A stretch of 39,985 bases of DNA. Origin: Nitrospirota bacterium (GTDB lineage Bacteria > Nitrospirota > Nitrospiria > Nitrospirales > Nitrospiraceae). The position numbers and the translations under genes are program-made. The DNA is taken from contig SCVN01000009.1 of the NCBI GenBank assembly GCA_004296885.1, positions 1 through 39,985 on the forward strand, given 5' to 3'. The notes under the pieces were generated by a model. The model ran no database searches. It was not told where the DNA came from and saw only the letters and a list, made by a program, of their open reading frames with translations. The stretch's first letter is position 1. Every line of letters starts with the position of its first letter. Below, one piece after another: positions 20,713 to 31,322 of the stretch.

Positions 20713-21345
20713 CTAGCCTTTGCTAGCGCCCCACAGCTGCGCCAGCCGCTGAGCCCGGCCGCAGTTGTGCTTGTAAAATTTGTACCGGATGGGATTCTTT
20801 TTATAGAAGTCCTGGTGGTATTCCTCGGCCGCATAGAAGGTCGAGACCGGCACGATCTGGGTCACGACCGGCTCCTTGAAGGGCTTGGTCGCCTCCACCT
20901 TCTTTTTAGATTCTTCCGCCAGTCGCTTCTGCTCTTCGTTGTGATAAAAAATGGCCGAACGGTACTGGCTCCCGATGTCGCAGAACTGCCGGTCCGGGGT
21001 TGTCGGATCGATGTTGCGCCAGAAGACCTCCAACAGCTTGCCGTAGCTCACCTTCGCCGGGTCGTAGAGGATTTCCACCGACTCGGCATGGCCCGTGCCC
21101 CCGGCCGAGACCTCTTCGTAGGTCGGATTGCCCTTCTGGCCGCCCGTATAGCCGGAGGTGGCGGAGACGACTCCGTCAATATCCTGAAACGCTTCCTCCA
21201 CGCACCAGAAGCAGCCGCCGGCGAAGGTGGCCTTAGCCGGTTGGCTGGCCCCTGTGCCTTGCTCAGCCCCCGTCGCAGTCGCACCCAGCGCTGCCAGCAA
21301 GACAGAGGCAAGCACCAGATTGATGCCCATCCGACTCCTGTTCAT
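20713..21345 (-). CDS. msrA: Peptide-methionine (S)-S-oxide reductase, exported
   Basis: A 210-residue MsrA. An N-terminal signal peptide (about 1-27, NLVLASVLLAALGATATGA) indicates export, so it repairs oxidised methionine in the periplasm, unlike cytosolic E. coli MsrA. The family signature GGCFWCVE places the catalytic Cys45, followed by SGYTGG (64-69), GHAESVEI and the C-terminal resolving Cys195 in KHNCGRAQ. It reduces methionine-S-sulfoxide using thioredoxin-like reductants. ATG 21345 has AGGAGGGGG just upstream. The promoter region carries the ECF motif (21443-21468), so it is probably part of the sigma/anti-sigma regulon; neisserial ECF sigma factors also control msr genes. A MITE-like repeat abuts the 3' end. 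Confidence 0.94.
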   Translation of the reverse strand: MNRSRMGINLVLASVLLAALGATATGAEQGTGASQPAKATFAGGCFWCVEEAFQDIDGVVSATSGYTGGQKGNPTYEEVSAGGTGHAESVEILYDPAKVSYGKLLEVFWRNIDPTTPDRQFCDIGSQYRSAIFYHNEEQKRLAEESKKKVEATKPFKEPVVTQIVPVSTFYAAEEYHQDFYKKNPIRYKFYKHNCGRAQRLAQLWGASKG

Positions 21346-21507: not shown

Positions 21508-22938
21508 TTATCCCTTCTCGCTTGCCGGCGCCGGCTCCGCCGGTTGGGTCTCCGTGGCGGCAATCGGCGGCCAGCCCCCGCCCAGAGCCTTGTAGAGCTG
21601 GACGATGGACACCAGATGGAGCCGATGCGTGCCCGTGAGGGCCAGCTCCGCGTCGAAGAGGTTCCGTTGCGCGATCAGCACGTCCAGGTAATTGGCCAGC
21701 CCTCCCTTGTACCGCAGATTGGCCAGGTGCAGAGCCGATCGCAGGGACTCGACCTGCTCGGCTTGCACGGCCCGTTGCTTGCGGGACGTGGTCACCGCCA
21801 CCAGCGCATCCTCGACTTCCCGGAAGGCCACGATGATCGTCTGTTCGTACTGGGCCAGGACCTGCTTGGCCTGGGCCTCGGCGGCCTTCTGCTGGAAGCC
21901 CAGGATCTGGGCGTTGAACAGAGGACCGGTGACGCTGGGGCCGGCTACGCGGAAGTCGCCGCCGCGCGTAAACAACTGCGAGAAGGACGGATCGGCCACG
22001 CCCAGGAGCCCGGTGATGGACAGTTTGGGAAAGCGGTCCGCCTTGGCCATCCCGATGCGCGCGGTGGCCGCGCCCAGTTCCTGCTCGGCCCGGACGATGT
22101 CGGGACGGCGCTGGAGCAGCTCCGAGGGGAGGCCGGCCGGCACCTGCGGCGGCACCGCCTGCTCGGTGAGGGAACGGCCCCTCGGAATCCGGACCGGGTT
22201 CCGTCCCAGCAGCACGCTGAGCTGGTTCTCCTTCTGGACCATCTGCCGCTCCAATTCCTCCGCGCGGGCCGCCGCATTGGCCCGTTCCGCCTCGAACTGG
22301 TCCGCGTCCAGCTTGGCGATGATGCCCCGCCGCAGCCGAGCCTTGGCGATCCGTACCGATTCGTCCCACGCGACCAGGGTACGTTTGGCGATGTCCAATT
22401 GCATATCGAACTGGCGCAGGTCGAAATAGGCCTGGGCCACGTCGCTGACCAGCTCCAGAATGACGGCCCGCCTGGCCTCCTCCTTGCCGAGCAAATCCGC
22501 GCGAGCCGCTTCGTTGGATCGGCGGATACGCCCCCAAATATCGATCTCCCAGGAGAGATTGCCCTGCACGTAGTAGTTGAAAGGGTTGGGAAATCCCGGA
22601 AACAGAAACAGGGACTGCCGGCCGAACGAGGGCGCGTAGACGGTCCCATCCAGCTTCGGGGCGAAATCGGTCCTGGCGATGAACAGCCGGGCCTCGAATT
22701 CTTCGATCGTGGCCGTGGCCTGCTTGAGGTCCTTGTTTTCCTCCAGCGCGATCCGGATCAGCTTCTGAAGCTCTTCGTCCTGGAGCAGCTCCCACCAGGG
22801 TAGGTTCGCGATGGACCGCCCGTCCGTCTCGGCCATGCGAAAGGCCTCGGGCTTCGGCACGTCGGGGCTGGTGTAGTCCGGCCCCACGGCGCAGGAGATC
22901 AGCAGCAGCGACACAGTGGCAAGGAGCAGACTGCGCAT
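21508..22938 (-). CDS. RND efflux outer-membrane lipoprotein (NodT/OprM family)
   Basis: A 476-residue outer-membrane factor. A lipoprotein signal ends at LLISCAVGPDY with lipidation on Cys16, followed by the family opening VGPDYTSPDVPKPEAF. Two repeats of the TolC-like helix-strand pattern are visible, with LPWWELLQDEELQKLIRIAL, LSWEIDIWGRIRRSNEAARA, then RRPDIVRAEQELGAATARIGMA and QYEQTIIVAFREVEDALVAV, all standard for the NodT/OprM group. As a trimer it forms the outer-membrane channel of the tripartite pump. It begins one nucleotide after the RND pump stop codon and is the last gene of the sigma-54-type operon. Confidence 0.94.
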   Translation of the reverse strand: MRSLLLATVSLLLISCAVGPDYTSPDVPKPEAFRMAETDGRSIANLPWWELLQDEELQKLIRIALEENKDLKQATATIEEFEARLFIARTDFAPKLDGTVYAPSFGRQSLFLFPGFPNPFNYYVQGNLSWEIDIWGRIRRSNEAARADLLGKEEARRAVILELVSDVAQAYFDLRQFDMQLDIAKRTLVAWDESVRIAKARLRRGIIAKLDADQFEAERANAAARAEELERQMVQKENQLSVLLGRNPVRIPRGRSLTEQAVPPQVPAGLPSELLQRRPDIVRAEQELGAATARIGMAKADRFPKLSITGLLGVADPSFSQLFTRGGDFRVAGPSVTGPLFNAQILGFQQKAAEAQAKQVLAQYEQTIIVAFREVEDALVAVTTSRKQRAVQAEQVESLRSALHLANLRYKGGLANYLDVLIAQRNLFDAELALTGTHRLHLVSIVQLYKALGGGWPPIAATETQPAEPAPASEKG

Positions 22939-22939
22939 G

Positions 22940-25900
22940 TCACTCCCCTCCTTCCGACGTGGCCGATCCGGATAATCCCGGCGCCTCGCCCGCAGCTTCC
23001 GTCCTCCGACCCATGATGCGCCGGGAGACTTGCTGAATCACCACGAAAAAGAGCGGCACGAAAAAGATGGCCAGGAACGTGGCGGCGAGCATCCCGCCGA
23101 AGACGCCGGTGCCGATGGAGTTCCGGCTGGCCGCTCCGGCGCCGGTCGCCACTACCAGCGGGACCACGCCCATGATGAAGGCCATAGAGGTCATCACGAT
23201 CGGCCGGAACCGCAGCTTGGCCGCCTCGATCGCCGCCTCCGCCATCGGCAGGCCGGCGGCGTGGCGCTTGTTCGCGAACTCGACGATCAGGATCGCGTTC
23301 TTGGCGGCGAGGCCGATCAGGGTGACCATGCCGATCTGAAAGTAAATGTCGTTGCTCAATCCCCTGAGCCACACGGCCGTCAAGGCTCCGAAGGCCCCGA
23401 ATGGCACGGCCAGGATCACGGCGAAGGGCACCGACCAGCTCTCGTACTGGGCCGCCAGCACCAGAAACACCATGACCAAGCCGAACGCAAAGGCCAGGGC
23501 CGATTCCGAGCCGACCTTGTGCTCCTGGTAGGAGATGCCGCTCCAGTCGATTCCGTAGCCTTGAGGCACCAAAATTTCCTGCGCCAGCCGGTCCAGGGCA
23601 TCCAGCGCCTGGCCCGAACTGTAGCCGGGCTTCGCCGCCCCCAGCACCAAAGCCGTGTTGAACCCGTTGAAGTGCGTGACCGGGTCCGGACCGCTGGTAT
23701 GTTCCGTCGTCACCACCGTATCCAGTGGAATCATGGACGCGCCCTGCCCGTTCAGCGCGCGCACGTAGATTTTGGCGATGTCCTCCGGGTCCGACCGGTA
23801 CTGGGCCTCCGCCTCCGTCTGCACCCGATAGACGCGGCCGAACTTGAGGAAGTCGTTGACGTAGAGGTTGCCGAAATAGGCCTGGAGCGTGTCGAATACC
23901 TCGGAGATGGGCACCCCCAGGGCCTTGGCCCGCTCCCGGTTCACGTTCGCATAGATGCGGGGGGCGCTCACGCGGAAACTGGTCCCGATCGCGCCGATCG
24001 CCGGGTCCTGCCGGGCCTTGGCGAGAAAGGCCTGCGCCACGGAGGCGAACTGTTTAAAATCCCCACCGCTGGGGTCTTGGAGCTGGACGGAAAACCCTCC
24101 CGTGGCGCCGAGCCCTCGGATCGACGGCGCGTTGAACGCCAGAATCAACGCTTCGGGAATCTTCGCGAATTCCTGGTAGGCCGCGCCGATCAAAGCCGTG
24201 ACGTGCTGGCTCGGATCCTTCCGTTCATCCCAGTGCCGCAGCGGCAGGAACATGGTCGCCGCGTTCGGCCCCCGCGTGTTGAAGACGAAATTCTGGCCGG
24301 ACAGGGCGTCCGTCGAGTGGATCGAGGGCACCGACAGGAAATACCGTTCCACTTTGTCGAGGACCGCGTCGGTCCGTTGCTTGGACGCCCCGTCGGGCAG
24401 TTGGACGATGGCGATGAAATAACCCTGGTCCTCGTCCGGCAGGAAGCTCGGCGGGATCATCCTGAGCAGGCCGACGGACAGCCCGATGAGGAGGCCGAAG
24501 ACCACCAGCGCCAGCAGCGACCGCTTGAGAAGCACCTCGACGGTCGCCGCATAGCGGACTTGCGTCCAATCGAAGAACCGGTTGAAGAGCCCGAAGAGGC
24601 CCCCGCGGGACTCGTGACCCGGCTTGAGGACGAGGGCGCAGAGGGCGGGGCTGAGCGTCAGCGCGACGAAGCCCGAAATGATCACGGAGATGGCGATGGT
24701 GATGGCGAACTGCTTGTAGAGCTGGCCGGTGATCCCGCCCAGGAATCCCACGGGCACGAACACGGAGCAGAGGACCAGCACGATCGCAATGACCGGCCCC
24801 GCCACTTCGCCCAGGGCTTTCTTGGCGGCGTCCTTGGGCGGGAGCCCGCCCCGCGTCATGTGGCGCTCGACGTTCTCGACGACCACGATCGCATCGTCCA
24901 CCACGATACCGATGGCCAACACCATCCCGAACAGCGTGAGGGTGTTGATGGAAAACCCCAGCGCGCTCATGCCGGCGAAGGTGCCGATCAGGGAGACCGG
25001 CACCGCCACGCCGGGAATCAGCGTGGCGCGCCAGCTCTGCAGAAACAGATAGACCACCAGGATGACCACCACCATGGCCTCTCCCAGCGTCTTGACCACT
25101 TCCTGGATGGAGACCTCGATGAACCGGGTCGTGTCGTAGGGGATGTCATACGACACGCCTTGGGGAAAGCTCTTGGCCAGGCTGTGCATTTCCTTGCGGA
25201 CCCGCTTCACCGTGTCGAGGGCGTTGGCGCCCGGCGACAGGAAGGTCAGGAGGAACACGTTGGGCTTGCCGTTCCACCGTCCTTCGAGGTCGTAGGACTG
25301 GGCGCCCAGTTCGACCCTGGCCACGTCCTTCAGGCGAACCATGGAGCCGCCGGGAAGGGCCCGCACGATCAACTCCTCGAAATCCTTCACCTCCGTCAAA
25401 CGGCCGCGCGTGATGACCGGGATGGTGAGCTCGGTCCCCTTGGCGGCCGGCTCACGCCCGACCGTGCCGGCGGGAAAGTCCCGGTTCTGTTCGCGGACGA
25501 CGGCCGCAATGTCGGTCGGCGTGAGGCTGAGCTGGGCCATCCGGACCGGGTCCAGAATCAGCCGCATGCTGTAGTTCTGCTGGCCAAAGACCATGGCATC
25601 GCCCACGCCGGGGAGTCGCTTGAGATTGTCGATCACGCGCAGGATGGCGTAGTTGGAGAGAAAGACCGTGTCCTGCCGGGGATCGTTGGAACTCAGCGCC
25701 ACGACCGCGAGCAGATCCGGCGACACTTTCTTCACGGTGACGCCCTGGCGGACCACTTCGGGCGGGAGCTGCGGCTCCGCCAGCTTCTGACGGTTCTGCG
25801 TCTGGACCTGGGCGATGTCCACGTTCGTGCCGATCTCGAACGTGAGCTTGATGCTCATGTGCCCGTCGTTGGTGCTGGTGGAATCGTAGTAGAGCAGATT

Positions 25901-26122
25901 GTCGATGCCGGGGAGCTGCACTTCGATGGGACGCGCCACCCCGTCCGCCACCACTTCCGCGCTGGCCCCCGGATAGTCGGCGTCGATCTGCACGACCGGA
26001 GGCGTGATCTCCGGAAATTGGGCGATGGGCAGGGACTGCAAGGACACCAGCCCAACCAGGACGATGACGATGGACAGGACCGCCGCGAAAATCGGCCGGT
26101 CGATGAAAAATCCGCCGCTCAT
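22940..26122 (-). CDS. RND multidrug efflux pump, HAE1 (AcrB/MexF) family
   Basis: A 1060-residue inner-membrane proton antiporter. It opens MSGGFFIDRPIFAAVLSIVI (TM1). The proton-relay Asp409 and Asp410 are in GIVVDDAIVVVENVERHM (TM4), and the partner Lys is in GLAAKNAILIVEFANKR (TM10). Two large periplasmic porter loops and about 12 membrane segments give the full family length. It exports hydrophobic or amphiphilic compounds from periplasm or membrane to the outside with the adjacent adaptor and outer-membrane factor. Its ATG overlaps the adaptor stop as ATGA and the outer-membrane factor follows after 1 nt, indicating tight coupling. Substrate is not predictable; the reductase in the operon hints at electrophiles or aromatic compounds. 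Confidence 0.96.
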   Translation of the reverse strand: MSGGFFIDRPIFAAVLSIVIVLVGLVSLQSLPIAQFPEITPPVVQIDADYPGASAEVVADGVARPIEVQLPGIDNLLYYDSTSTNDGHMSIKLTFEIGTNVDIAQVQTQNRQKLAEPQLPPEVVRQGVTVKKVSPDLLAVVALSSNDPRQDTVFLSNYAILRVIDNLKRLPGVGDAMVFGQQNYSMRLILDPVRMAQLSLTPTDIAAVVREQNRDFPAGTVGREPAAKGTELTIPVITRGRLTEVKDFEELIVRALPGGSMVRLKDVARVELGAQSYDLEGRWNGKPNVFLLTFLSPGANALDTVKRVRKEMHSLAKSFPQGVSYDIPYDTTRFIEVSIQEVVKTLGEAMVVVILVVYLFLQSWRATLIPGVAVPVSLIGTFAGMSALGFSINTLTLFGMVLAIGIVVDDAIVVVENVERHMTRGGLPPKDAAKKALGEVAGPVIAIVLVLCSVFVPVGFLGGITGQLYKQFAITIAISVIISGFVALTLSPALCALVLKPGHESRGGLFGLFNRFFDWTQVRYAATVEVLLKRSLLALVVFGLLIGLSVGLLRMIPPSFLPDEDQGYFIAIVQLPDGASKQRTDAVLDKVERYFLSVPSIHSTDALSGQNFVFNTRGPNAATMFLPLRHWDERKDPSQHVTALIGAAYQEFAKIPEALILAFNAPSIRGLGATGGFSVQLQDPSGGDFKQFASVAQAFLAKARQDPAIGAIGTSFRVSAPRIYANVNRERAKALGVPISEVFDTLQAYFGNLYVNDFLKFGRVYRVQTEAEAQYRSDPEDIAKIYVRALNGQGASMIPLDTVVTTEHTSGPDPVTHFNGFNTALVLGAAKPGYSSGQALDALDRLAQEILVPQGYGIDWSGISYQEHKVGSESALAFAFGLVMVFLVLAAQYESWSVPFAVILAVPFGAFGALTAVWLRGLSNDIYFQIGMVTLIGLAAKNAILIVEFANKRHAAGLPMAEAAIEAAKLRFRPIVMTSMAFIMGVVPLVVATGAGAASRNSIGTGVFGGMLAATFLAIFFVPLFFVVIQQVSRRIMGRRTEAAGEAPGLSGSATSEGGE

Positions 26123-27369
26123 TGGCCGGCCTCCGGCTTCGGGCCCGTCTCCGGCTTGGCCGCGGGCTTCGCGTCAGCCTTCGCCTGTGGAGCCTGGCTG
26201 CCGGAGGAAGCAACCGGACCGTGATAGGGAACCGGCTTGACCGGCGCGCCGGGGACGATGCGATACATGCCTTCCACCACAATCCGCTCTCCGGCCTTCA
26301 ACCCTTCTTCCACAAGCCATTGGTTGCCGTGCCAGGCAGCCGCCAGGATATCGCGGACCTCCACCTTGTCGCCCTCGCCCACGACATAGATGACCGACCC
26401 CTTTGCCCCTTGCTGCACCGCCCGTTGCGGCACCAGGATGGCCCCGGTCCGCACGGCGCCCAGGAAGCGGACTTTCACGAACTGTCCCGGTAGCAGCGCC
26501 CGCTCCGGGTTGGGGAACACGACCCGCACGTCCATCGTGCCGGTCGTGGTGCGCAGCCCCACATCGAGCAAGTCCAAATCCCCCTCATGCGGGTAGATAC
26601 TGCCGTCCGTAAAGGTGATCACGCCCCGCAGATCGTAGACCTCCGCGCCCTGCACCTTTTTCGACGCCCGCTCCCGACGCCGCTTGAGCAAGAAATTCTC
26701 CGGAGCGCTGACGATGACGTACATCGGGTCCATCTGGTGGATGACCGTGAGCAGATCGGTCTGCGCGGCGACCAGCCGCCCTTCGTAGACCTTGGTCCGT
26801 TCGATCAGGCCGTCGATGGGGGCGGTGATGAGCGTGTTGTTCATGTCGAACTCCGCCTTGGTCAACTCTGCCTTGGCGGATTCCAGCGCCGCCTTCGACG
26901 AGAGGTCTTCCGCCACCGCATCGTCCACGTCCTTCTGGCTCACGGCCTGCTCCTCCAACAGGGGCTTGACGCGGGCCAGGTTCTGTCGTGCCTGCACGAC
27001 GCGCGCCGCCGCCTGGGCGACCTTGCCTTTGGCGCTGGCCACGGCAGCCTGGAACGGCACGGGATCGATTTGATACAGCCGGTCGCCTCGCTTGACGTCC
27101 CGGCCTTCGGTGAAATAGCGCTCTTTGATGATCCCCGTCACTTGCGACCGGATCTCGACCGGACGGGAGGACTCGGCCTGTCCGATCAGTTCCGGCTCGT
27201 CCGCCACTTCCTGGGCCGTCACCGTCAGCACCTCGACTTCCGGCAGAGACTGCGCCGGCGTGGAGGCCGCTTCCTGCTTGCACCCGACCGACGCGGTGAT
27301 CGCCACCCAGAGAAACAGGATGGCCGCCGCCCGAATCGTCCGACCGATGAAATGCGTTGCGGGGCTCAT
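26119..27369 (-). CDS. RND efflux periplasmic adaptor (membrane fusion protein)
   Basis: A 416-residue HlyD/AcrA-type adaptor. A lipoprotein signal with Cys30 (VAITASVGCKQE) anchors it to the inner membrane. The lipoyl/barrel-sandwich half starts VEIRSQVTGIIKERYFTEG, followed by an alpha-helical hairpin (about 95-165, AKGKVAQAAARVVQARQNLAR through LESAKAELTKAEFDMNN), the second lipoyl half ITAPIDGLIERTKVYEG, and a beta-barrel with LLPGQFVKVRF. It bridges the pump and outer-membrane channel. ATG 27369 is supported by AAGGAG five nucleotides upstream and overlaps the STAS stop by 4 nt (ATGA); its own stop overlaps the pump start the same way. Confidence 0.94.
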   Translation of the reverse strand: MSPATHFIGRTIRAAAILFLWVAITASVGCKQEAASTPAQSLPEVEVLTVTAQEVADEPELIGQAESSRPVEIRSQVTGIIKERYFTEGRDVKRGDRLYQIDPVPFQAAVASAKGKVAQAAARVVQARQNLARVKPLLEEQAVSQKDVDDAVAEDLSSKAALESAKAELTKAEFDMNNTLITAPIDGLIERTKVYEGRLVAAQTDLLTVIHQMDPMYVIVSAPENFLLKRRRERASKKVQGAEVYDLRGVITFTDGSIYPHEGDLDLLDVGLRTTTGTMDVRVVFPNPERALLPGQFVKVRFLGAVRTGAILVPQRAVQQGAKGSVIYVVGEGDKVEVRDILAAAWHGNQWLVEEGLKAGERIVVEGMYRIVPGAPVKPVPYHGPVASSGSQAPQAKADAKPAAKPETGPKPEAGQ

Positions 27370-27707: not shown

Positions 27708-28805
27708 TCATGCGGCTTCAGAACTCGTGGAATCCGGGTAATCGGTGTAGCCCTTCGGCCCCGGCGTATAGAACGTGGTTGGGTCCGGTTGCGCCAGGAG
27801 GGCGGCGGTCCGGAACCGACGCACCAAATCGGGATTGGCGATGAACGGCCTGGCGAAGCCGATCATGTCCGCCTGCCCCAAGCTCAACAGCTCATTCGCA
27901 CTCTCGCGATCGAATCCGCCGGTGGCGATGATCGGCCCCGTGAAATGCGTCCGCATGAGGGCGATCGGATCGAACGTCTGCTCCTGCTGCGGAAGCTTCC
28001 CCGATCGCTGCACGTGCAGATAGGCCAGCCCCAGAGGGTTGATGGCCTTGGCCAGGTAGGGATAGAGGTCGAGCGGATCGTTCTCCTGGATGTCGTTGAA
28101 GGTATTGCCGGGGCTGACGCGCAGACCGATCCGGCTCGCCGACCCGGCCCCATCCGCCATGGCTTCCAGCGTCTCGATGACGAGGCGCGCCCGGTTCTGG
28201 ACGGTGCCTCCGTAGTGGTCCGTCCGTCGGTTGCTGTTGGAGGCCAGGAATTGCATCGGCAGGTAGCCGTTCGCCCCGTGCAGCTCGACCCCGTCGAATC
28301 CGGCCAGCATGGCGTTGATCGTCGCCTGCCGGTACTCGTCAATGACCGACGGGATCTCTTCCGTTGCCAGGGCGCGGGGCATGCTGTGGTCCTGGAGCCC
28401 CAGGGCATCGGTGTACATCTGCCCGGCTGCGCGGATCGCCGAGGGGGCGACGGGCGGGCCATCCACCGTCCGGTTCAGACGGTGGGCGATACGCCCCGTA
28501 TGCATGAGTTGGAGGACGATCCGCCCGCCGCGCGCGTGGACCGCCTCCGTCACCTTCCGCCAGGACGCGATCTGTTCGGGCGAGTGCATGCCCGGGGTCC
28601 GCGGGTACCCCTGGCCGTTCGCGCTGGGCTGCGTCCCTTCCGTGATGATCAGGCCTGCCTCCGCCCGCTGCGCATAATAGGTCGCGGCCAGATCAGACGG
28701 CACCCCCGTGACGCTGGCCCTGCTTCTCGTCATCGGCGCCATGACGATCCGGTTGTTCAGCTCCAGTGCACCGCTCACGATCGGCTCGAACAATGGCTCG
28801 CTCAT
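27708..28805 (-). CDS. Old yellow enzyme family alkene reductase (NemA-like)
   Basis: A 365-residue FMN-dependent ene-reductase. The TIM barrel opens LFEPIVSGALELNNRIVMAP MTRSRA; other family marks are AGLIITEGTQPSANGQGYP, IVLQLMHTGRIAH, the substrate-binding His/Asn segment VELHGANGYLPMQFL, SNRRTDHYGGTVQNRARL and IATGGFDRESANELL near the FMN phosphate. Such enzymes reduce activated double bonds, nitro compounds and quinones with NAD(P)H in the cytosol. GGAGGAGG lies just upstream of ATG 28805. It is the second gene of the sigma-54-type operon, between a small membrane protein and the STAS protein. Its pairing with an RND pump suggests detoxification of electrophiles by reduction plus export (inference). 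Confidence 0.94.
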   Translation of the reverse strand: MSEPLFEPIVSGALELNNRIVMAPMTRSRASVTGVPSDLAATYYAQRAEAGLIITEGTQPSANGQGYPRTPGMHSPEQIASWRKVTEAVHARGGRIVLQLMHTGRIAHRLNRTVDGPPVAPSAIRAAGQMYTDALGLQDHSMPRALATEEIPSVIDEYRQATINAMLAGFDGVELHGANGYLPMQFLASNSNRRTDHYGGTVQNRARLVIETLEAMADGAGSASRIGLRVSPGNTFNDIQENDPLDLYPYLAKAINPLGLAYLHVQRSGKLPQQEQTFDPIALMRTHFTGPIIATGGFDRESANELLSLGQADMIGFARPFIANPDLVRRFRTAALLAQPDPTTFYTPGPKGYTDYPDSTSSEAA

Positions 28806-28847: not shown

Positions 28848-29045
28848 TCAGAACATGGAAAAGACCTGACGTATCCTCCGGCGTGGCCCCGAATGAGTCG
28901 GCCCTCCGGCCTGACCGTTCCCGGCCGCCCGGCTCTGCTGCCGGGAGACGTGAGCGGTTTGTACCTTGAGCCCGTTAACGGCAACCAGGAGAGCCAGCAG
29001 CATGACAACCGATAGAGCGGGAAATATGATCATCATCCAGGACAT
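28848..29045 (-). CDS. Small membrane protein, first gene of efflux operon
   Basis: A 65-residue protein, MSWMMIIFPALSVVMLLALL onward. One hydrophobic helix (about 4-24) is followed by a 40-residue polar, basic tail (KVQTAHVSRQQSR ... PRRRIRQVFSMF). The ATG is strongly supported by AAAGGAGGG five nucleotides upstream. No family is recognised. It is the first gene read from the sigma-54-type promoter at 29092-29107 (leader about 36 nt) and precedes the ene-reductase by 42 nt. It could modify the pump or sense membrane state, but nothing in the sequence proves this. Confidence 0.7.
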   Translation of the reverse strand: MSWMMIIFPALSVVMLLALLVAVNGLKVQTAHVSRQQSRAAGNGQAGGPTHSGPRRRIRQVFSMF

Positions 29046-29091
29046 GATGCCCTCCTTTCTTCTTCAAAAATCCATAGACACTGTTCGGTAG

Positions 29092-29107
29092 AGCAAAGGC
29101 CGTTCCA
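29092..29107 (-). promoter_or_regulatory. Sigma-54 (-24/-12) promoter of the reductase/efflux operon
   Basis: On the minus strand TGGAACGGCCTTTGCT (29107-29092) matches the sigma-54 consensus TGGCACG-N4-TTGCW with one mismatch and exact GG-to-GC spacing. The predicted transcript start is about 29081, leaving a leader of about 36 nt with a ribosome site before ATG 29045. Confidence 0.72.
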
Positions 29108-29148
29108 TGCCGTGGACGGCATAGCAAACTATGACGCAAGACGATGAT

Positions 29149-29161
29149 TAACAATAAATTA
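29149..29161. promoter_or_regulatory. IHF-like bending site
   Basis: TAACAATAAATTA fits the IHF consensus WATCAAN4TTR with one mismatch. It lies in an AT-rich patch between the sigma-54 promoter and the upstream palindromes, the usual place for IHF in sigma-54 control regions. Confidence 0.45.
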
Positions 29162-29203
29162 TTCGCATCGTCATGATGACTGACTCGTCTGGAATTGATC
29201 AGG

Positions 29204-29252
29204 TGCCGATCGGCAGGCGCCGACATGACGGCACGATGCCGATATGTCGGCA
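29204..29252. promoter_or_regulatory. Three activator-binding palindromes (upstream activating sequence)
   Basis: Three related inverted repeats occur: TGCCGATCGGCA (29204-29215, perfect), CGCCGACATGACGGCA (29218-29233) and TGCCGATATGTCGGCA (29237-29252). The half-site is TGCCG(A)/(T)CGGCA. Their centres lie 16 and 19 bp apart and about 110-145 bp upstream of the sigma-54 promoter. They probably bind the activator encoded immediately upstream. Confidence 0.65.
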
Positions 29253-29279
29253 CGCAAAACCGCTTCGATTGGAACTGTT

Positions 29280-31322
29280 TTATCGAGGGCGGGAGATGTG
29301 GAGCTTCTGCATTCTGGATTGAAGCGTAGTCCGTTTCATGCCGAGTTTGGCTGCGGCGCCGGTGGAACCGCCAATCACCCAGCCGGTGGCGTTGAGCGCG
29401 CGCAGAATATGTTCGCGCTCCGCTGCTTCGAGCGTGGCGACCGGCTGGAGCTCATCCCTGGCCGCCGCCTTCAACTCCGCGAGCGGTACGTGCAGGTCGG
29501 CGCCACGGGAGAGAATGACGGCTCGCTCGATCAGGTTCTCCAACTCGCGGACATTGCCGGGCCAGTGATACCGGGACAAGGCGGCCATGACGCCGCTCGG
29601 GACGGTCTCGATCCGCTTGTTCATCCGCCTGGCGAATTTCTGCGCGAAGTAACGGACGAGCGAGGGAATGTCCTCCCGGCGTTCGCGGAGCGGCGGCACC
29701 GTGAGGGGAAAGACATTGAAGCGATAGTAGAGATCGCTGCGGAATTGTTTCTCGGCGACCAGGCGGACGTTGACCCGAATCGTCTTCGTGCTGCCAAGCC
29801 GTTCGAACTCCTGCTCCTGCAACACTCGCAACAATTTGGATTGCAGCTCGAGCGGAATGTCGCCCACTTCGTCGAGAAACAGGGTCCCCCCGTCGGCCAG
29901 CTCGAACCGTCCGATTTTCGTGGCGATCGCCCCGGTAAACGCGCCTTTTTCGTGACCGAACAATTCGCTTTCCACCAGCCCGCTCGGGATAGCCGCGCAG
30001 TTCATTTTGACGAAAGTCCTGCCGCGCCGGCCGCTGCGATTGTGGATGGCGCGGGCCAGCAATTCCTTGCCGGTTCCGGTCTCGCCCAGAATCAGGACCG
30101 TGGAATCGGTCGGAGCCACGATCTCCACCTGCTGCAGGACCCGCCTGAGGGCCGGCCCGTCCCCGACGATCTCTTCGAAGTTGTACTCGTTCTGGATTTC
30201 CCCTTCGAGGTAGAGCTTTTCCTTGCTCAGCTTGTCCTTCAGCTCGGCGATCTCCCGATACGCCAGCGCGTTCTCGACCGCGATCGCGATCTGGCTCGCC
30301 ACCTGGGTCAGCAAATCCACGTCGTCCTGGCCAAAGGCATCGGCGCGCAGGCTGGCGATGTTGAGGGTCCCCAGTTGCCGGTTGCGCGATCGGAGCGGCA
30401 CGCAGCAGATAGATTTGATCCCTTCGGCCAGCAGCAGCTTCACGAACTCCGCCGTGAACGTCTGCAATTCGTTCTCGCCGAACCGTTGCGGCTTCTCCGA
30501 GCGAAGCGCGACGCCCGCCGGGGTCCCCTCGACCGGATTCACCATGCCTTCATGGAGCAAACCCTTGCTCACGGGAAAATCCAGGGCATAGAGGCGGAAC
30601 CGGTCGCCCTCCGGTTCGTGCAAAGCCAGGCTGGTATAGTCGTTCGGCAGCACGCGGCGGAGGGAGGCCGCCGTGGCGGCAAACACATCCCGAAACTCCA
30701 AGTGCGAGACCACGGCATTGTTGACCTCCAGCAAGAGCATGAGCCGGTCGCGCTCCCTGGCCAGGTGCTGCTGGGAGGCTTGAACCGCCTCGTAGTTCAG
30801 GACGTTGTCGATCGCCACCGCCACTTGCTTGGTGACTTGATCGAGGAACGCCAGCTCCGCGTCCCCGAAGGCGCAAGGCTTGAGGCTTCCGAACCCCATG
30901 GTGCCAAGGCGGCGTACCGCCGTGGTGAGCGGGAACATGCACAACGACGCCACGCCGATGTCTCTGAGGATCGCAAGCCCTTTGGGAAAGCGCGTTTCGT
31001 CTTTCAGGCAGGGCACGATGAGCGGCTGTTGGTGCGTCCACACCCAGCCGCCTGCCGACTCGGCGACCGGCAATTCCATTCCGGAAGGCAGGGTTTTGGA
31101 CTCGGAGGTTTCCAGCACATGGACGCGCATGACGTCCCGCGCCGGATCGTGCAGGAGAAATCCGACATACTCAAACCGAACGACCGCGGGGAGGCGACGG
31201 GCCAGTTCCCGGCACAAAGCGGCCAGATCACGGTGTGCGGCGATCGCTTCCGTGACCTCCAGCAGGGCGCCATACCGGTCGGCGCCGGGCTCCGCCGTCA
31301 GTGATCCAGGCTTCTCCGCCAT
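29280..31322 (-). CDS. FhlA-like sigma-54-dependent activator, Sensor I region missing
   Basis: A 680-residue bacterial enhancer-binding protein. Two GAF domains (about 17-175 and 190-355) precede a coiled linker, then an AAA+ domain (about 380-610) with Walker A GETGTGKE (413-420), GAFTGA (460-465) and Walker B LFLDEVG (Asp484, Glu485), and a C-terminal Fis-type helix-turn-helix (about 630-680, [18 protein letters not shown]). Arginine fingers Arg528 and Arg534 are present (FRSDLYYR). Between VRLVA (519-523) and EKQFRSD, about 11 residues found in FhlA-type proteins (ATNRDL...) are absent, removing Sensor I; the frame is intact. The gene ends 27 bp from three palindromes that precede a sigma-54 promoter, so it probably controls the efflux operon. 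A leaderless-type promoter lies at 31330-31358. Confidence 0.92.

Follow-up and report, generated by a model that had tools for sequence, protein, structure and literature searches.

The region between positions 29280 and 29045 of the window (the whole stretch of 39,985 nucleotides that was analysed, from a Nitrospirota bacterium) very probably controls a sigma-54 operon in an enhancer-dependent manner, through the FhlA-like activator encoded upstream of it. The elements of this region (Table 1), their conservation as one unit of fixed spacing, and their link to a subfamily of helix-turn-helix (HTH) proteins were computed directly. The activator itself, in this genome, has an in-frame gap in its ATPase domain, which bears on whether the control region is in use here.

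Table 1. Features of the control region, the activator gene and the predicted operon (positions in the window)
Feature	Position	Strand	Basis or remark
FhlA-like group-3 enhancer-binding protein, 680 aa	29280..31322	minus	Pfam, NCBIfam
11-residue in-frame gap in AAA+ domain, junction	29753..29754	minus	comparison with 74 copies
Operator site 1, TGCCGACATATCGGCA	29252-29237	minus	16-bp palindrome
Operator site 2, TGCCGTCATGTCGGCG, 19 bp from site 1	29233-29218	minus	16-bp palindrome
Third site, TGCCGATCGGCA	29215-29204	minus	12-bp palindrome; conserved half-site TCGGCA at 29209-29204
IHF-like site, AATCATCGTCTTG	29149-29137	minus	one mismatch to WATCARNNNNTTR; A+T-rich flank 29162-29150
Sigma-54 promoter TGGAACGGCCTTTGCT, TGGAACG-N4-TTGCT	29107-29092	minus	pattern match
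Small protein, 65 aa, one apparent membrane segment, first operon gene	28848..29045	minus
Old yellow enzyme family flavoprotein, nearest N-ethylmaleimide reductase	27708..28805	minus	PF00724 1.7e-78; NF007899 351 bits, below cut-off 403
STAS-domain protein, 103 aa	27366..27677	minus	weak PF13466 and TIGR00377 matches
RND efflux periplasmic adaptor	26119..27369	minus	TIGR01730 256 bits, above cut-off; likely start 27369, overlapping STAS stop
HAE1-type RND efflux permease	22940..26122	minus	PF00873; NF000282 1391 bits, above cut-off
NodT-type outer-membrane efflux factor (OMF)	21508..22938	minus	TIGR01845 353 bits, above cut-off
Peptide methionine sulfoxide reductase MsrA	20713..21345	minus	PF01625 3.4e-67

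The elements of the control region

A first-pass annotation had placed three palindromes, an IHF-like site and a -24/-12 promoter between the stop codon of the activator gene (TAA, 29282-29280, minus strand) and the start of a small gene, and all of its coordinates hold. Their number has to be read differently, in that there are two full 16-bp sites and a third element that is a conserved half-site, nearly complete here by happenstance; at 12 bp and not 16, palindrome 3 is not the equal of sites 1 and 2. The T at position 6 of site 2 is the commonest base in the class of modules with 19-bp spacing. The 3.26-Mb genome has a single copy of the exact first palindrome; the strict pattern of the tandem pair also occurs once, and the regulator therefore looks local. 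Another palindrome, TGCCGTCCACGGCA (29121-29108), abutting the -24 element, was left out; it is unconserved in two sister species.

The promoter carries GG at 29106-29105 and GC at 29094-29093, the two dinucleotides standing at the fixed spacing of TGGNACG-N4-TTGC that marks a sigma-54 promoter by sequence, and it predicts a transcription start near 29081. In the 40-kb window only TGGAACGGCCTTTGCT matches TGGNACGNNNNTTGCW exactly, and 1.03 matches with up to one mismatch would be expected there. The promoter is conserved, and the one mismatch that had been noted in it is no departure: 77 of 81 modules have A as the last base of TGGN, and TGGA is accordingly the norm of the family. The IHF-like site, also put forward with one mismatch, is there as described and its position is conserved in the family: it lies 29 bp upstream of the -24 element in the window and in both sister species, whose own sites read AATCATCAACTTG and AATCATAGTCTTA. 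The predicted site, an IHF consensus between enhancer and promoter, is what IHF-assisted activation leads one to expect of the sequence. The small reading frame is preceded by a purine-rich ribosome-binding site, AAAGGAGGG. No sigma-70 promoter was found on the minus strand of the control region, the two promoter-like matches there being on the plus strand.

Conservation of the operator and promoter as one module

In favour of the palindromes being nothing more than an accident of G+C-rich DNA, near-matches to a single palindrome number 10 in the 40-kb window against 4.3 expected; single TGCCG-N6-CGGCA sites stand at only about twice their expected frequency, an excess that is insignificant alone. 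What goes beyond chance is not the single palindrome but how the pair is spaced in tandem, where it lies and how well it is conserved, and the co-conservation of the spaced pair in many genomes has already refuted an accidental origin, to which we leave next to no probability. Among at least 80 relatives of the activator, taken from named genomes among the matches listed, many have, shortly behind their stop codon, 16-bp TGCCGA-N4-TCGGCA sites repeated in tandem at 18–19 bp spacing, and such operators follow genes of the FhlA-type HTH in Nitrospirota, Acidobacteriota and Deltaproteobacteria. When the tandem operator was used as a DNA pattern alone, with no protein as reference and with the reversed pattern as a control, it was matched in 80 of the 197 genomes of the order and in 19 of 35 genera, against three matches in total for the control (genomes, operators and modules are all counted as they stand, uncorrected for relatedness). 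The order is Nitrospirales by inference, Nitrospira and other Nitrospirae assemblies being the nearest named relatives among the matches listed. Allowing one mismatch at most, a -24/-12 element lies 119–153 bp downstream of 80 of the 102 distinct operators found in this way by DNA alone, as compared with 15 of 1170 control windows per strand (1.3%).

The logo of 81 modules reads yGCCGAnnnnTCGGCA at site 1 and TGCCG[A/T]nnnnTCGGC[A/G] at site 2, followed, exactly 14 bp after the right arm of site 2 and in both spacing classes, by a third element, TCGGCA, which is weaker but clear; this third half-site is kept only partly in the sister species and lies within a complete short palindrome in the window. 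IHF-like sites with up to one mismatch were found in 34 of the 81 modules, where 10 would be expected, and 25 of the 39 matches lie 24–29 bp upstream of the -24 element on the promoter strand. When a relaxed scan asked for no fewer than 11 of 13 positions at 22–31 bp upstream of the -24 element, 64 of 81 modules qualified, against 5–10 of 81 in three control positions. The distances from operator to promoter form two clusters, 125–134 and 138–145 bp, about 13 bp apart. The distance from IHF site to -24 element was seen to be nearly the same in both, 24–27 and 26–29 bp respectively.

At the 19 activator-linked loci with a clear promoter, the operator stands 142.5 ± 4.1 bp from the -24 element (range 130–150), whereas its distance from the stop codon is 50 ± 54 bp (range 3–197 bp), and because the former is nearly constant and the latter variable, the operator is tied to the promoter and not to the end of the gene. 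Palindromic sites about 80–200 bp upstream and fixed relative to the promoter have the arrangement of upstream activating sequences. The same distances bear on the proposal that the palindromes form an RNA hairpin, a terminator or attenuator behind the activator gene. The stretch does fold better than its shuffles (z -3.1), as is expected of any set of palindromes, but a terminator-like site is absent from 28950-29400, Rfam gives no match, and a hairpin serving the activator transcript would sit uneasily with a stop-codon distance that is not conserved beside a promoter distance that is; the terminator or attenuator was rejected on these grounds, and a hairpin of either kind seems to us hardly tenable. 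The first-pass annotation had staked its reading on finding the palindromes conserved in related genomes, and they are, together with the IHF-like site and the promoter at fixed spacing. The enhancer-dependent geometry that it had proposed is thereby borne out, with operator, IHF-like site and promoter conserved as a unit in the family, and with one RpoN gene and three HU/IHF-family genes in the window genome.

Which protein reads the operator

A sister class of arrays, with the pattern TGACG-N8-CGTCA (TGACGA-N6-TCGTCA), was found in 37 of the 197 genomes with zero control matches; it has the same third half-site, and its first palindrome lies 142–147 bp from the -24 element where a promoter was found. 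At 11 loci (L234, L243, L246, L249-L251, L253-L257), counted among those where an upstream activator gene runs the same way, the sister array was observed to begin exactly at the TGA stop codon of that FhlA-type gene, so that the first arm of the operator includes the stop codon. A TGTCGA class, with two matches in 197 genomes and no promoter nearby, was discarded as an operator and served as a control.

The recognition helices of the two classes differ: LG[LI]KRTTL[T/G/Q] with TGACGA operators, and mostly LGMKRTTLQ with TGCCGA operators. The residue after RTTL is Q in 60 of 60 TGCCGA-class proteins and other than Q in 8 of 13 TGACGA-class proteins (Fisher 1e-7, from counts entered by hand and in a test that ignores relatedness). 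The link is imperfect, as LG[LI]KRTTLQ proteins accompany operators of either class, and a code of one residue was abandoned, these exceptions and the relatedness of the proteins forbidding a rule. Even so, the co-variation of helix and operator supports the view that FhlA-like proteins would be what binds the operators.

An activator gene ends within 400 bp upstream of 34 of the 80 promoter-linked operators; the other 46 have none directly upstream. Because it adjoins at 34 of 80 only, the pairing of operator and regulator seems to go by family and not always by neighbourhood, although the same 46 operators, and the fact that 16-bp palindromic sites are common to many regulator families, could be taken to mean that some unrelated dimeric regulator, for example a repressor, binds sites that happen to adjoin sigma-54 promoters. 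We consider such a regulator distinctly improbable, since the distances to the -24/-12 element and to the IHF site are fixed, the operator variant changes along with the subclass of activator, and the TGACGA arrays start at an activator stop codon in those 11 cases.

The activator and its sensor I gap

The activator reading returns us to the protein encoded in the window, which has two GAF domains, a sigma-54 AAA+ domain with GAFTGA and a Fis-type HTH, and so the domains of a group-3 enhancer-binding protein of the FhlA/NorR group (by translation and by Pfam: PF00158 at 8.6e-62, two GAF stretches and HTH_8). The GAF group of enhancer-binding proteins is named in PMC7175178. The closest named full-length relative is FhlA of E. 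coli, with about 44% identity over 81%, and the two have GAF domains, AAA+ and HTH in common; against the FhlA equivalog model of NCBIfam (NF011958) the activator scores 544 bits, below the curated cut-off of 830. Unlike the case of E. coli FhlA, there are no formate hydrogenlyase genes among the examined neighbours of the activator. The operator of E. coli FhlA presumably differs from the operator here.

The first-pass annotation had taken this neighbour to be the matching activator, and as to type it is, being FhlA-like with a matching helix-turn-helix; as to function it may fail in this organism, for the sensor I motif ATNRDL is missing from it, a gap that had been overlooked. All 74 comparison copies retain the motif or a close form of it, and the linker at this place is 14 residues long in the same 74 and three residues long in the window genome only, so that it is in the window copy alone that the AAA+ motor is incomplete. 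The gap falls between two in-frame Val-Ala pairs, and the reading frame is otherwise open. Those other enhancer-binding proteins of the genome that the search pattern caught retain ATN, TTN or ATH there. To judge by the title of a work referenced in PMC2745333, the sensor I threonine of PspF couples hydrolysis to promoter remodelling, and the loss of the segment should therefore cripple activation. Without sensor I the window activator may thus be ATPase-defective here, unless the gap is an error of the metagenome-assembled genome (MAG); a genuine in-frame loss and a fault of assembly could each account for it.

It follows that the control region could be intact and yet silent in this genome, the activator being a loss-of-function allele and the operon either uninducible through it or driven by a paralogous FhlA-like protein, a state of affairs to which we give a real chance, if rather less than an even one. 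In its favour are the uniqueness of the 11-residue gap beside so many copies that keep the motif, and the presence in the same genome of a paralogue, L006 (G000:C6:17292-18902), an FhlA-like activator with an intact ATN motif and a recognition helix, KRSTLQ, similar to that of the window activator. Against it, the assembly is in 23 contigs, 3.26 Mb in all, and may contain a consensus error, and the operator, the IHF site and the promoter are without decay, as is the frame outside the gap. Silence of this kind concerns the window genome only and is compatible with an enhancer-dependent control region in the lineage. The paralogue, going by its helix, could bind the same operator, and if the gap is real, either the enhancer has been kept next to a crippled activator or L006 may have taken over. 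At L006 itself a palindrome, TGCCCACATATGGGCA, was noted and judged a matter of chance: it is single, has no tandem partner and overlaps the likely start of the reading frame (...CATATGGGCACATCG...).

The operon and its regulon

Behind the promoter, the 65-aa small protein has no Pfam or NCBIfam match and is conserved at full length in a sister species (locus L216), where the ene-reductase and the RND permease are found as well. MsrA, on the same strand, is probably the last gene of the operon. In many relatives within Nitrospira (L074, L051, L050, L098, L223) the first gene after the promoter was observed to encode a small zinc-ribbon-like protein, CPRC...RC.QCGE, where the window has its membrane protein.

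Other genomes may carry several operators in one neighbourhood, as does G025, with four within about 16 kb. Their recurrent cargo is a STAS gene plus an exporter, whether RND, MFS with HlyD, or ABC, and the output therefore points to efflux and detoxification. A STAS gene lies downstream in 26 of the 46 promoter-linked operators without an adjoining activator. We also observed that no downstream partner of the operators is as constant as the STAS-domain protein, which recurs across phyla and is often encoded by the first gene after the promoter. It is conceivable, though as a whole unlikely, that activator, tandem operator and STAS protein make up a single modular cassette that has spread through several phyla and become attached to different exporters (RND, MFS with HlyD, ABC), in which the STAS protein would act back on the FhlA-like activator by partner-switching and the recognition helix would read its operator, of the TGCCGA or TGACGA class, by a simple code. 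We know of no control of the partner-switching type for sigma-54 activators.

A model of activation and its relation to known systems

The binding, the looping, the dependence on RpoN and the inducer are inferred. Dimers of the GAF-sensing FhlA-like protein would bind the two TGCCGA-N4-TCGGCA palindromes and the third half-site, and there assemble into an AAA+ ring, which would contact the sigma-54 RNA polymerase at TGGAACG-N4-TTGCT across a loop, bent by IHF, of about 100 bp. The operon for the small protein, the ene-reductase, the STAS protein, the RND pump and the OMF (and MsrA) would in this way be switched on, the presumed trigger being a toxic small molecule sensed by the GAF domains. 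In the window genome this activation is possibly impaired, unless a paralogue such as L006 stands in for the activator or the gap comes from faulty assembly.

The nearest parallel is NorR, whose sites we take to be GTCA-N3-TGAC and thus unlike the operator here. Both systems have a GAF-type group-3 enhancer-binding protein and enhancer sites upstream of a sigma-54 promoter; the system in the window differs in its two full sites plus a half-site, in its two GAF domains, and in its target, an operon for efflux and an ene-reductase that runs in the same direction as the activator. At norVW of E. coli, three enhancer sites scaffold the AAA+ oligomer of NorR (so a passage in PMC2941729, which cites Tucker et al. 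2010). By analogy, the five to six half-sites here would fit three dimers.

Sigma-54 regulomes have reportedly been reconstructed in Desulfovibrio and Clostridiales by pairing an enhancer-binding protein with a palindromic motif. The sigma-54 regulome of PMC4641369 rests on the same kind of inference, in which an enhancer-binding protein is matched to a palindromic motif and to a -24/-12 promoter that is conserved, and in the passages of its text that were covered the present operator goes unmentioned. Six exact forms of the operator gave no match in the text of the open literature searched, and searches there likewise gave nothing specific on FhlA-like sigma-54 regulators in Nitrospira or Acidobacteria. 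The earlier claim of an operator for an undescribed FhlA-like regulator therefore stands as regards the open literature, the word “undescribed” being provisional. The mechanism is of a known kind; the operator sequence is apparently new.

Among the matches listed, Nitrospira and Acidobacteria have many FhlA-like activators, and no operator was found reported for them. The module described here would give a whole uncharacterised subfamily a defined operator, a geometry and a predicted regulon of efflux, STAS proteins and detoxification enzymes, in such a way that operator and regulon could be read straight from the genomes of organisms that are hard to grow. The window itself would offer a natural example in which the enhancer is intact while the activator next to it is apparently without part of its ATPase.
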